Of a stretch of 64,000 bases of DNA, positions 17,175 through 27,106 are shown piece by piece. Origin of the DNA: Solobacterium sp. (GTDB lineage: Bacteria; Bacillota_I; Bacilli_A; Erysipelotrichales; Erysipelotrichaceae); NCBI GenBank assembly GCA_017469885.1, contig JAFUFO010000004.1, positions 1 to 64,000 of the forward strand. The letters run 5' to 3'. Numbering within the stretch: position 1 is the first letter of the stretch; each line of letters begins with the position of its first letter. The position numbers and the translations under genes are program-made. The notes beneath the pieces were generated by a model. That model did not search any database and was not told where the DNA came from. It was given only the letters and a program-made list of their open reading frames with translations.

Positions 17175-17355
17175 TGGACACCCTCCTGTTCCATTCCTTG
17201 ATCAGGACATCCTCTATGTTCAGCCTCGGAGCCCTGGATCCAACAAGATAACAGTTCGACTTGTGATAGCAGTGAACTGTATACTGGTCCTTCACTTTCT
17301 GTACAAACGCATAACCACCACAGAACGGACATGGTTTCAATTCATTCGTTTCCAT
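17155..17355 (-). CDS. Lar-like restriction alleviation zinc-ribbon protein
   Basis: 66 residues opening ELKPCPFCGG, the signature of the Lar family, with a second Cys pair (HCYHKSNC) and EWNRR near the end, both also typical. Lar of the Rac prophage softens type I restriction of phage DNA. Here the function is inferred from the family. It overlaps the replication gene by 14 bp. Confidence 0.68.
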   Translation of the reverse strand: METNELKPCPFCGGYAFVQKVKDQYTVHCYHKSNCYLVGSRAPRLNIEDVLIKEWNRRVSNEKKTD

Positions 17356-18118
17356 GGTTCTTCCCCTTGTTGATCAGCGCTTTAACCTGCTCAATTTCTT
17401 CTTTGGATGCAGGCTTAGGATCTTTTACCCTGATCGGATCCGTGTTCCAGTACTCTGGCGTATCTCCGGTCTTACGCTTCTTCTCTCTCCGTTCCCAGTT
17501 CCGGACTGTTGCTCTCCAATCTTTCATCGTAGTCTTGCCTACACTCCATCCATTGGAGGTGTAGTAGTCGATGAAACTCTGAGCATCCACACCAAAACCA
17601 TTTGCAGAGATGTATTCCTGTACTTCCGAACGCGTGGGAGGCGTGAAATGCGCAGCATTCACGGCTTTTCCCTTTGGATTCGTATTCGTATTCGGATTGG
17701 ATTCGGATTGGATTGGATTGGATTGGATTACGGGAACAATTGCATGCAATTGATTGCAATTGATTTCAATTGAATTCAATTGCTGTTTTCCCTCTTCAAT
17801 AGATGGATATTTACTCTTTTTATTTCGGATAGTCTGATGTTTACTCCAAGTAGTCAATTGAAGGAACGGCATCTCATTCACTGTGTAGAGCTGTACCAAA
17901 CCTTCCGCCGATAACCTTTCGAGCCCTTTCTCGATATCCTTAACTGTCACATCTTTAAGAGGGAAGCATTGTCCCTTGATAACTTTCGGGCGTCCGTCAT
18001 ACCTTCCGAAGTCGTCACACTTTACGATCAGCCGGTAGAACATCACCTCTTCAAACCATGAGAGATTATCAATCTCATCACTTACACAAATACTTTCTTT
18101 TAATATTCTGTTCGGCAT
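17342..18118 (-). CDS. Phage replication initiator (replisome organiser-like)
   Basis: 258 residues with GGAGG before the ATG. The N-terminal 110 residues (MPNRILKESICVSDEIDNLS, then a winged-helix region with LTTWSKHQTIRNKKSKYPS) match the DNA-binding domain of Firmicutes phage replication proteins. Residues 115-155 are low complexity and encoded by iterated DNA. The C-terminal 100 residues include a DnaD-like segment (FIDYYTSNGWSVGKTTMKDW), which usually contacts the helicase loader. It lies between SSB and small early genes. No helicase or loader gene is present, so the host's are presumably used. Confidence 0.8.
   Translation of the reverse strand: MPNRILKESICVSDEIDNLSWFEEVMFYRLIVKCDDFGRYDGRPKVIKGQCFPLKDVTVKDIEKGLERLSAEGLVQLYTVNEMPFLQLTTWSKHQTIRNKKSKYPSIEEGKQQLNSIEINCNQLHAIVPVIQSNPIQSESNPNTNTNPKGKAVNAAHFTPPTRSEVQEYISANGFGVDAQSFIDYYTSNGWSVGKTTMKDWRATVRNWERREKKRKTGDTPEYWNTDPIRVKDPKPASKEEIEQVKALINKGKNHGNE
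17676..17783. repeat. Iterons inside the initiator gene, putative phage replication origin
   Basis: CAATTG occurs five times at exactly 10-base spacing (17736, 17746, 17756, 17766, 17776). Just to the left is a run of ATTGG/ATTCG units with a 5-base period (about 17680-17728). Helically phased iterons inside the initiator gene are the usual form of a phage origin, as in lambda O and many lactococcal phages. The repeats are seen directly; the origin role is inferred. Confidence 0.6.
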
Positions 18119-24336: not shown

Positions 24337-24351
24337 TTGAATTTAATTCAC
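24337..24351. promoter_or_regulatory. Repressor operator copy (repressor promoter)
   Basis: TTGAATTTAATTCAC, the third copy of the operator, overlaps the -35 of the repressor's own promoter and so could allow autoregulation. Confidence 0.6.
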
Positions 24352-24365
24352 ATGAGTGTTACTAT
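24338..24365 (+). promoter_or_regulatory. Repressor maintenance promoter
   Basis: TTGAAT (24338-24343) and TACTAT (24360-24365) are separated by 16 bases, followed by the repressor start at 24385. Confidence 0.55.
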
Positions 24366-24384
24366 GCAAACACGAGGACTATAT

Positions 24385-25017
24385 ATGAATAATCTTTATA
24401 AAAATATCAAAGCACTGCGAAAGCAGCACAACATGTCGCAAGAGGAACTTGCGTATAAGACTGGATATACTGACAGAAGCAGTATTGCCAAAATTGAAGC
24501 AGGCGATGTAGATCTCCCTCAGTCAAAAATACAGTTATTTGCTGATGTTTTTCATGTAACACCGCAATACTTAATGGGTTATACCGATGATAAAACCTCA
24601 GTCAAACTCCCCCACCCGGAGTCCGTGCGCACGATTCCTGTATATAGTTCTCTGTCCTGCGGCACCGGCCTTTTCGTGGAAGACCAGGTCGTCGATACCG
24701 TTACAGTCCCCGTAAGTATGCTGCCGAATAAAAATGCCGAGTATTTCGCCCAGTACGCCGCCGGCGATTCCATGACCGATGCCGGGATCAATCATGGCGA
24801 CCTCGTTATCTTCAAAAAGACCAGCACGATTGATAACGGCCAGATCGGCTGCTTCTGCATTGATGAGAATGTAGCCACCTGTAAGAAGTTCTCCCAGATC
24901 GGAGGCTCAGTATATCTGATGCCGGCAAATGACAAATACCAGCCAATTCCGATTGAGCCGGAGAATCAGTGTTTCCGGGTTATTGGCTTGCTGGTTGCTC
25001 AGGTGTCAAAAAGGTAA
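24385..25017 (+). CDS. CI/LexA-type phage repressor with S24 peptidase domain
   Basis: 210 residues from the ATG at 24385 (ACGAGGA site). Residues 4-60 are an XRE helix-turn-helix (NMSQEELAYKTGYTDRSSIAKIE). The C-terminal half is a LexA/S24 domain: the catalytic Ser is in AAGDSMTDAGI, the Lys in ENVATCKKF, and the likely self-cleavage point is Cys-Gly in SLSCGTG instead of the common Ala-Gly. It keeps the prophage silent and is expected to self-cleave on RecA activation. It is divergent from cro, with operators between them. Confidence 0.92.
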   Translation: MNNLYKNIKALRKQHNMSQEELAYKTGYTDRSSIAKIEAGDVDLPQSKIQLFADVFHVTPQYLMGYTDDKTSVKLPHPESVRTIPVYSSLSCGTGLFVEDQVVDTVTVPVSMLPNKNAEYFAQYAAGDSMTDAGINHGDLVIFKKTSTIDNGQIGCFCIDENVATCKKFSQIGGSVYLMPANDKYQPIPIEPENQCFRVIGLLVAQVSKR

Positions 25018-25022
25018 CAGAT

Positions 25023-25766
25023 ATGGATTATCAGCATATTTATTTGTATATGGATGACTCCGGAAAAATATCCCAACATGAAGATTATGCTGTCTTTGCA
25101 GGGATTGTTTTTACCAGTTCGCCCGAAGTTTCTGAGTTCAAAAATAAGTACAAATCCATAGTAAGGAACATTAAGTGTAAATATTGTTCACAGGTGCAAT
25201 CAATGTGTGATGGTCAATGTCCCGAAATTAAAGCGTCTATTATCAATAGTAGTGACAGGAGAAGATTCATTAACTTAAGTAAGTCACACATCACCTTCTG
25301 TACCGTTATTCTTAATCAAAACTTAAACTCTACGATTGTTAATAACGTTCCTTCCAAAGGGCGATTCACCGAGTATTCTCAGAGAAGAATCATTAAAAAG
25401 ACCATGGAGTATCTCATCAACACGAGAGCAGTTGATCCCCATAAACCAATCTATCTTCATATAAACATTGATGAAATGCCCACAAAGACCAACGGCTACT
25501 ATTCCTTGCGGGAAGGAATAATAGAGGAATTGAGGTATGGAATTATTAATTTCAATTATGGACACACTTTCAAACCTATTGTGCATAACTTACTTGAAGC
25601 CCAGGTTATTTACCGGGATTCAAAATGTGATGTCGGCATTCAAATGGCTGATATTATTGCAAATACAGTTCGACATTCATTTGTGATAAATTCAAACTAT
25701 TTCGAAACAAGGAAATATTTAAAGGAAACCTGTAAAATTAACGTTATTCTTCGTCTACCAAATTAG
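25023..25766 (+). CDS. DUF3800 protein in the lysogeny module
   Basis: 247 residues from the ATG at 25023, six bases after the repressor stop and so probably co-transcribed with it and expressed in the lysogen. The start HIYLYMDDSGKI is the DUF3800 signature (Asp-Asp/Glu-Ser-Gly). Further acidic residues at HINIDEMP and at the end, GIQMADIIANT, fit an RNase H-like nuclease fold. DUF3800 genes recur in prophages and defence islands but have no settled function. A role in superinfection immunity is plausible here from location alone. Confidence 0.78.
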   Translation: MDYQHIYLYMDDSGKISQHEDYAVFAGIVFTSSPEVSEFKNKYKSIVRNIKCKYCSQVQSMCDGQCPEIKASIINSSDRRRFINLSKSHITFCTVILNQNLNSTIVNNVPSKGRFTEYSQRRIIKKTMEYLINTRAVDPHKPIYLHINIDEMPTKTNGYYSLREGIIEELRYGIINFNYGHTFKPIVHNLLEAQVIYRDSKCDVGIQMADIIANTVRHSFVINSNYFETRKYLKETCKINVILRLPN

Positions 25767-25774
25767 GCAAAAGA

Positions 25775-25890
25775 AAAGCCTGCACGAGGCAGACATTTTC
25801 CTAGCCGGAAAGACGTACTTAGCATACGCTTAATCTTTCGATCATTTACCGGCTATTGACCTGTCATAGGCTTCCCTATCGGTAAATGTA
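25775..25890 (+). ncRNA. Structured non-coding element with alternative helices
   Basis: The 299-bp gap after the DUF3800 gene holds a compound hairpin: TAGCCGG (25802-25808) pairs with CCGGCTA (25849-25855), enclosing AAAGA/TCTTT and CGTA/TACG with a 7-base loop. A 9-bp arm CATTTACCG (25843-25851) can instead pair with CGGTAAATG (25880-25888). The two pairings share bases and exclude each other. This may be a regulated terminator, a small RNA, or protein-binding inverted repeats. Structure is read by eye only. Confidence 0.4.
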
Positions 25891-25996: not shown

Positions 25997-26065
25997 CAGG
26001 TGAACTATAAACGTTTCGAGGCGTCTTTTAGTTCGCCTTCATTTTATCAGAATGGAGGTATTTTT

Positions 26066-27106
26066 ATGATCAAATGTACTGACGAAAAGAAACAACTTTA
26101 CTTTGTTCAGATCAAGGTAAAGGATCCTATCACCGGAAATTGGAAAACAAAAAAGAAACGCGGCATTCAGGGAAAGCGGAATGCTCAGGCGGAAGAGAGG
26201 CAAATGATGATTGACGCATCATCCGCAACCACCGCCGATTCCTTCAGGGCTATTTGGCACTTTTGGGAGAATGCCGAACAAGCATCCGCGGAAATGAAAC
26301 GTCATTACAAAGAACACTTTGAGATCCGGTTTAAAGATTATCTTGATGAGCCGATTGAGAAGATTACCCGAACGCAACTAACCGGATGGCGCGTAGAGCT
26401 TGCACAAATGGATTTCGCTACCAAGACCAAGAATATGACCATCACATATGTGAAATCCGTATTTCGGTTTGCGGCGGAAACTTATGGAATCAAGAATCCA
26501 GCAACTGTGCTGAGATCATTCAAACGCTCAAACGATGAGGTTATGACTGAGATGAAAGTATGGTCCCCGGAAGAGTATTCCGCCTTCAGGTCAGCCGTAG
26601 ACAACCCTCTGTATGCGATGTTCTTTGACACCCTGTTTTGGACCGGTATGAGACGCGGGGAGGCCATTGCCCTTCAGAAAGAGGATTTCACTGATGGGTG
26701 GTTGAATGTCCGGGCAAGTCAAAGGACCATGAAGGAAGGGCGGAAACCTACAAAGACCAAACAGCGGAGAAACGTGCAAATTGATTCCGTGCTCAACGAT
26801 GAGTTAAAGCCCCTGTTAAAGGAGCCCGGCAATTATCTGTTTGGCGGGGAGACAGCCCTCGGCCCAACCGCCATTGACAGTCATTTCCGGAAGGCAATTA
26901 AGAAATCCGGTGTATCTCCTATCCGCATCCATGATCTGAGGCACAGTCACGCAACATGGCTTATTAATCAAGGTGTGAACATTGTTGCGGTATCCCGGAG
27001 GCTGGGGCATTCTTCTATCGAGCAAACCCTCCAAACGTATACTCATCTCCTGAAAGGAACAGAGGAGAAACTGATGGAAGAAATCGAAAACGCAAAAAAG
27101 AAGTGA
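26066..27106 (+). CDS. int: Prophage tyrosine integrase
   Basis: 346 residues from the ATG at 26066 (TGGAGGT site). The N-terminal 60 residues form an arm-binding domain, 70-160 the SAM-like core-binding domain, and 180-340 the catalytic domain with Arg in TGMRRGEA, the HDLRHSHA box, His in RRLGHSS and the nucleophile Tyr in TLQTYTHL. It inserts and excises the prophage at the adjacent tRNA 3' end. It lies next to attR and points outward, the common layout. Confidence 0.95.
   Translation: MIKCTDEKKQLYFVQIKVKDPITGNWKTKKKRGIQGKRNAQAEERQMMIDASSATTADSFRAIWHFWENAEQASAEMKRHYKEHFEIRFKDYLDEPIEKITRTQLTGWRVELAQMDFATKTKNMTITYVKSVFRFAAETYGIKNPATVLRSFKRSNDEVMTEMKVWSPEEYSAFRSAVDNPLYAMFFDTLFWTGMRRGEAIALQKEDFTDGWLNVRASQRTMKEGRKPTKTKQRRNVQIDSVLNDELKPLLKEPGNYLFGGETALGPTAIDSHFRKAIKKSGVSPIRIHDLRHSHATWLINQGVNIVAVSRRLGHSSIEQTLQTYTHLLKGTEEKLMEEIENAKKK

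Follow-up and report, generated by a model that had tools for sequence, protein, structure and literature searches.

The replication origin of a prophage very probably lies at positions 17639-17783 of the window, i.e., the whole 64,000-nucleotide stretch of DNA analysed here (contig positions 1-64000), within the gene for the phage's own replication initiator. It would be a lambda-type in-gene origin, bound by the initiator that is encoded around it, with the difference that this initiator belongs to an unrelated family and that its iterons are only one helical turn apart. The first-pass annotation had read the repeats as iterons bound by their own initiator, and this reading is likely, considering the conservation of the DNA independent of the reading frame, its confinement to a single gene, the covariation of the iterons with residue 96 of the protein, and the lambda-like order of the elements. 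From such comparative evidence, we infer that replication starts at the array. The resulting sequence rule may point to the probable origin in a large and little-studied group of phages and prophages, most of them from the gut.

The initiator gene and the element in its linker

The prophage occupies positions 1-27106 of the window, at one contig end. Its portal, terminase, head and tail genes are located on the left, on the minus strand, and ordinary host genes, e.g., one for a GH43 enzyme, are found beyond the integrase gene. Because the prophage reaches the start of the contig, its left end is outside the window. In the minus-strand early module, the neighbors of the initiator gene are those for SSB, RusA, RecT, DUF1351, and YqaJ. 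The relevant features are the following, with the basis of each in brackets where applicable.

17342-18118, minus strand: replication initiator gene, 258 aa (PHROG 5810 'replication initiation protein', E 7e-26)
17801-18118, minus strand: N-terminal winged-helix domain, aa 1-106, proposed to bind the iterons (AlphaFold2; winged-helix matches in the PDB)
17831-17833, minus strand: codon of residue 96, Thr in the HQ[x]IR motif, proposed specificity residue (covariation and prospective test)
17777-17782, no strand: iteron CAATTG, most distant from the tract (sequence)
17767-17772, no strand: iteron CAATTG (sequence)
17757-17762, no strand: iteron CAATTG (sequence)
17747-17752, no strand: iteron CAATTG (sequence)
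17737-17742, no strand: iteron CAATTG, adjoining the spacer (sequence)
17730-17736, minus strand: conserved spacer from the last iteron to the tract, TTCCCGT on the coding strand (class I junction consensus GCAAATGTCCCCGT/AATCC, the slash marking the start of the tract)
17676-17729, minus strand: strand-asymmetric tract of 5-bp (AATCC) and 6-bp (GAATCC, AATACG) units, proposed unwinding or single-strand region
17639-17666, no strand: imperfect inverted repeat AGCCGTGAA-TGCTGCGCAT-TTCACGCCT, just past the tract (excess in the family; p = 0.13 in the window alone)
17468-17641, minus strand: C-terminal helical domain, aa 160-217, exchangeable between relatives (AlphaFold2; C-terminal mosaicism)
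17360-17488, minus strand: C-terminal tail, aa 211-253 (49% identity over 43 aa to the C-terminus of a host chromosomal DnaB_2 (PF07261) protein)
24337-25017: repressor gene of the prophage
26000-27106: integrase gene of the prophage

The match to the PHROG 5810 profile covers residues 1-189 of the initiator, i.e., most of the protein; a Pfam profile search assigned it to no family. In the AlphaFold2 model (mean pLDDT 81, with 39 homologs in the input), the N-domain, aa about 7-106, is modelled as a winged helix, with a block pLDDT of 84-98 over aa 11-110. Its matches in the PDB are generic winged helices, including 4pql and 4pt7, structures of an initiator N-domain which we take to be that of pSK41 Rep. 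The match to 4pql (Z 7.6, 3.1 A over 87 residues) is tied with those to many winged helices. The viral structure models closest to the initiator are named replisome organizers. Between the two folded parts of the protein, a linker of aa 116-152 is predicted to be disordered. Since the iterons encode aa 113-127 and the tract encodes about aa 130-147, the DNA element fills this linker, which agrees with the earlier placement of array and tract inside the linker-coding part of the gene.

The array consists of five CAATTG sites at exact 10-bp steps, starting at 17737, 17747, 17757, 17767, and 17777, just as first described. CAATTG occurs 17 times in the 64 kb, against 26.4 times expected from shuffles, and five of these occurrences fall within 46 bp; three successive CAATTG sites at 10-bp spacing are unique to the array in the 2.66-Mb assembly. 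A sixth site, at 17855, is out of phase. When a 57-nt segment with four of the five sites was compared with synonymous-codon shuffles, it was matched by one of 20,000. The first-pass annotation had placed all sites on the same face of the DNA. As 10 bp is slightly less than the helical repeat of 10.5 bp, their alignment on one face is close rather than perfect.

The 5-bp ATTGG tract that had been noticed beside the iterons is present at 17676-17729, but 6-bp units (e.g., GGATTC, GTATTC) are mixed in. Its AT content is moderate, at 59% vs. 54% and 50% for the domains on either side; its strand asymmetry is clear, with a GC skew of -0.48; the least stable stretch of the initiator gene is located elsewhere than in the tract. 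The span originally given for the element, 17676-17783, does contain array and tract, but the element reaches further, up to the inverted repeat at 17639-17666.

Constraint on the DNA across homologs

About 130 homologous genes were compared, and the 10-bp iteron array, the short spacer, and the AATCC tract were found at the same place across homologs. For 76 non-redundant homologs, the self-similarity of the linker was compared with that of synonymous-codon shuffles (p <= 0.01). The linker was above the shuffles at lag 10 in 44 genes, at lag 5 in 41, and at lag 6 in 31, and a control part of the initiator gene showed no excess of periodicity over synonymous shuffles. Because lag 10 also registers the 5-bp tract, the test was repeated on the iteron part only. 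Here, lag 10 beat the synonymous shuffles in 48/70 genes, and lags 7-9 and 11-14 did so in at most 1/70. In a second set of 52 new loci, <80% identical to the first set, lag 10 was significant in 37 and lags 8, 9, 11, and 12 in at most two. Thus, the period is sharply 10 bp in both sets, and the comparison of iteron spacing in related phages, which had been proposed as a check, came out in favor of the array. Chance or codon bias as the source of the periodicity is ruled out by the synonymous shuffles.

In more distant homologs, found in phages of actinobacteria, proteobacteria, and Paenibacillus, the linker mostly contains a repeat array and a tract of its own sequence, with other periods. 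Primase sites are CTA/CTG repeats; a reading of the tract as a series of such sites suits some distant homologs and was rejected for AATCC. Class- and phylum-wide scans of host genomes yielded no further relatives, and the sample therefore consists mainly of viral contigs.

When aligned on the start of the tract, 58 class I genes share the sequence ...CAAATGATATCAGATGATAGCAAATGTCCCCGT/AATCCAATCCAATCC; L010, L011, L078, L086, and L113, which have other tracts, were left out of this alignment. The junction is in frame 0 in 37 genes, where it reads ..KCPR/NPIQS.., and in frame 2 in 20 genes, the window among them, where it reads ..NVPV/IQSNP... Compared position by position, the junction segments of the two groups are 67% identical in DNA vs. 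4% in peptide. The two frame groups have different counts of 5-bp units modulo 3, as is needed to regain the frame of the C-terminal part, and in 52/70 genes none of the three forward frames of the tract contains a stop. Because the same element is kept in different reading frames, it is the DNA that is conserved and not the encoded peptide. The family thus offers a clear example of a DNA function that overrides peptide sequence, the same DNA being kept in a protein through changes of frame.

A 23-base junction pattern was also used in a DNA-only search of 2.9 million viral contigs. Of the 64 matches, 62 directly follow an initiator N-domain in an open frame, with 44 of them read in frame 0 and 18 in frame 2; in the other two, the contig ends about 100 bp away. 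Thus, in viral contigs, the junction element is unseen outside the initiator gene.

These results bear on the possibility of repeat slippage in an unconstrained, flexible linker, in which case the phasing and the tract would be neutral low-complexity DNA. The predicted disorder of the linker would suit such a process, as would the tract, which is a simple repeat of varying length among homologs. However, a neutral process would not hold one 10-bp period across genes of diverged sequence, nor keep the junction in two frames, nor tie the iterons to residue 96 (see below), and steps of 10 and 5 bp shift the reading frame. Slippage is considered a highly improbable explanation. The same grade is given to a partition-like or packaging site that is bound by another phage or host protein. 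Plasmid centromeres also have iteron arrays, and the fold matches of the N-domain include winged-helix centromere-binding proteins, but the site is located within the initiator gene in every resolvable case, and its sequence tracks the N-domain of that same gene.

Behind the tract, an excess of inverted repeats over synonymous shuffles is seen in both independent sets, at roughly +24 to +60 relative to the junction. In the best interval of positions, the excess reached p <= 0.05 in 24/70 and 13/43 genes, and most other intervals were near expectation, the iterons themselves excepted. The sequence of the inverted repeat varies across the family, and the imperfect copy at 17639-17666 is weak when considered alone (p = 0.13).

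Residue 96, iteron types, and exchange of parts

Three main types of iterons were found, all on 10 bp: CAWWTG (58 genes), GCGGC/GCCGC (8 genes), and CACGGTG (3 genes). A first residue-class test, which pooled all of class II, singled out no column, as iterons of this class span more than one N-domain clade. Among the 106 positions of the N-domain, residue 96 has the highest mutual information with iteron class. Arg at this position accompanies the loss of the CANNTG lattice (p 2.6e-9, a value that carries no correction for shared ancestry), with about five changes on a tree for which column 96 was left out. Furthermore, Thr96 goes with CAATTG, vs. Gln96 with CAAATG or CAGATG (Fisher p 9e-7, equally uncorrected for shared ancestry). 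The prediction for residue 96 was recorded before new loci were fetched, a lattice being defined as at least three CANNTG. In these new loci, the lattice was missing in 39/40 genes with Arg96 and present in 9/12 genes with another residue, leaving as exceptions 1/40 and 3/12, respectively. The prediction is a switch of specificity by a single residue, which is open to immediate testing.

Residue 96 does not account for every case, because L073 and L075 combine Gln96 with AACGTT-type 10-bp iterons, with the tract kept. Both (L073:1501-2583, L075:1501-2640) carry an additional NucS-like or PD-(D/E)XK-like domain, inserted after the initiator N-domain and before the linker, and perhaps this domain took over iteron recognition. 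GCGGC/GCCGC iterons together with Arg96 are found in separate N-domain clades (L023, L024, L020, and L005 vs. L070, L099, L102, and L116), a pattern suggesting that origin specificity has switched repeatedly.

An alternative that predicts the same binding and the same covariation between residue and iterons is that the array is an operator, through which the protein represses or road-blocks transcription in its own gene, the origin being elsewhere. The fold matches of the N-domain do include the repressors MecI, BlaI, and CodY. However, the array is located >330 bp inside the gene with no minus-strand promoter-like match nearby, and the frame-independent tract, the inverted repeat behind the array, and the lambda-like order would all be left unexplained. 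Besides, an origin might repress transcription as a side effect. An operator is therefore regarded as very unlikely, although somewhat less so than slippage or a partition-like site, and an in-gene origin remains the preferred reading.

In the linkers of L224, L234, L239, L258, and L263, CACGGTG-type iterons are followed by another tract (e.g., GAAGTAGAAG or AAACCGAAACCG) and not by AATCC. Thus, the tract sequence is exchangeable independently of the iterons. The C-terminal part is exchanged as well. Only 156 of 1195 homolog pairs with N-domains that are >=60% identical have a detectable C-terminal match, and between the window and L038, 90% of the N-domain is shared vs. no C-terminal match. 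The joint of this swap lies in or near the tract. The C-terminal domain alone gave no fold match in the PDB, and a DnaD-like C-domain is therefore not demonstrable. The host protein that resembles the C-terminal tail of the initiator is of the DnaB_2 helicase-loader type (compared as L007:544-1737), and a similar tail is present in few homologs only, i.e., L008, L038, and L116. The resemblance suggests that the tail may recruit or contact the helicase-loading machinery of the host.

Known origins and a proposed mechanism

In phage lambda, ori is located inside gene O and comprises iterons and an AT-rich region (PMC7466680). The element in the prophage has the same order, i.e., iterons in the middle of the initiator gene, an adjoining strand-asymmetric tract, and then an inverted repeat, which is supported across the family and weak in the window itself. 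In lambda O, the annotated iterons are at codons about 117-144; next comes an asymmetric tract rich in A, and 43 bp past the last iteron lies the inverted repeat GTCAGAGAATTC-TGGC-GAATCCTCTGAC, with a 4-nt loop. The two differ in detail: the four iterons of lambda are 18 bp long and start at intervals of 20-24 bp, whereas the prophage unit is 10 bp, i.e., one turn, with a short core, and the tract consists of A-rich runs in lambda but of 5/6-bp units in the prophage. The initiator has no match to PF04492 (Phage_rep_O) in a profile search, whereas lambda O matches it at 6e-36, and hhalign gave a probability of 0.15 for the initiator vs. lambda O/PF04492. Given the same order in proteins without detectable sequence relation, the element is likened to lambda ori in its working and is not assigned to the lambda O family. 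That this order recurs on an initiator with no recognizable kinship to lambda O suggests a common plan of in-gene origins, reflecting either convergence or a common descent too ancient to be traced.

Other systems share parts of this plan. In RepA_N plasmids such as pSK41, the Rep boxes are located centrally within rep, and pSK41 Rep has been described as DnaD-like (PMC5703833). The likeness consists in an N-terminal DNA-binding domain, an origin in the central linker, and a separate C-terminal domain; the initiator has no match to Pfam RepA_N (PF06970) up to E 1. In phage SPP1, oriL is located within gene 38, which encodes gp38 (PMC6316719). According to the published description, gp38 is likewise the initiator of a Firmicute phage with direct repeats and an unwinding element in its own gene, but SPP1 differs in possessing another origin as well as a helicase and a helicase loader of its own. 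Finally, bacterial oriC has a basal unwinding system with DnaA-trios, and there is the DnaD recognition element (PMC6669920, PMC10201434). This arrangement resembles the prophage element in having double-strand binding sites, a short spacer, and a short-period, strand-specific tract, and this layout suggests, by analogy, a similar division of labor. However, the period of the DnaA-trio tract is 3 and that of the prophage tract 5/6, without DnaA-trios or TnnT pairs, and the initiator is not DnaA. A reading of the tract as DnaA-trios or as DnaD TnnT sites was rejected, as the AATCC repeat contains neither motif (PMC10201434).

The following mechanism is proposed. The origin at 17639-17783 would be encoded within the disordered linker of its own initiator, of which the N-terminal winged-helix domain would bind the 10-bp array, with about one domain per helical turn. 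Judging from the covariation, residue 96 may read the iteron core. By analogy, the complex of initiator and array would open the adjoining strand-asymmetric tract. The replicative helicase could then be loaded at the single-stranded tract and, as the likeness to lambda ori suggests, probably also at the hairpin behind it. The swapped C-terminal part, here with a tail resembling DnaB/DnaD-type loaders, would recruit the host machinery.

A more far-reaching view is put forward as tentative. The linker might be a portable, frame-independent origin cassette whose identity is set via the specificity residue of the N-domain; the stop-free tract might serve as the joint for swapping helicase-recruiting C-domains, and the initiator might bind the tract in single-stranded form, as a phage counterpart of the DnaA-trio. 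No earlier description of the in-gene element was found in the open-licence literature.

A minor observation concerns the prophage segment between repressor and integrase, where a DUF3800 protein gene (24969-25766, plus strand) is located together with a match to the Rfam DUF3800-I RNA (25764-25890, minus strand), which is found directly at the 3' end of that gene.
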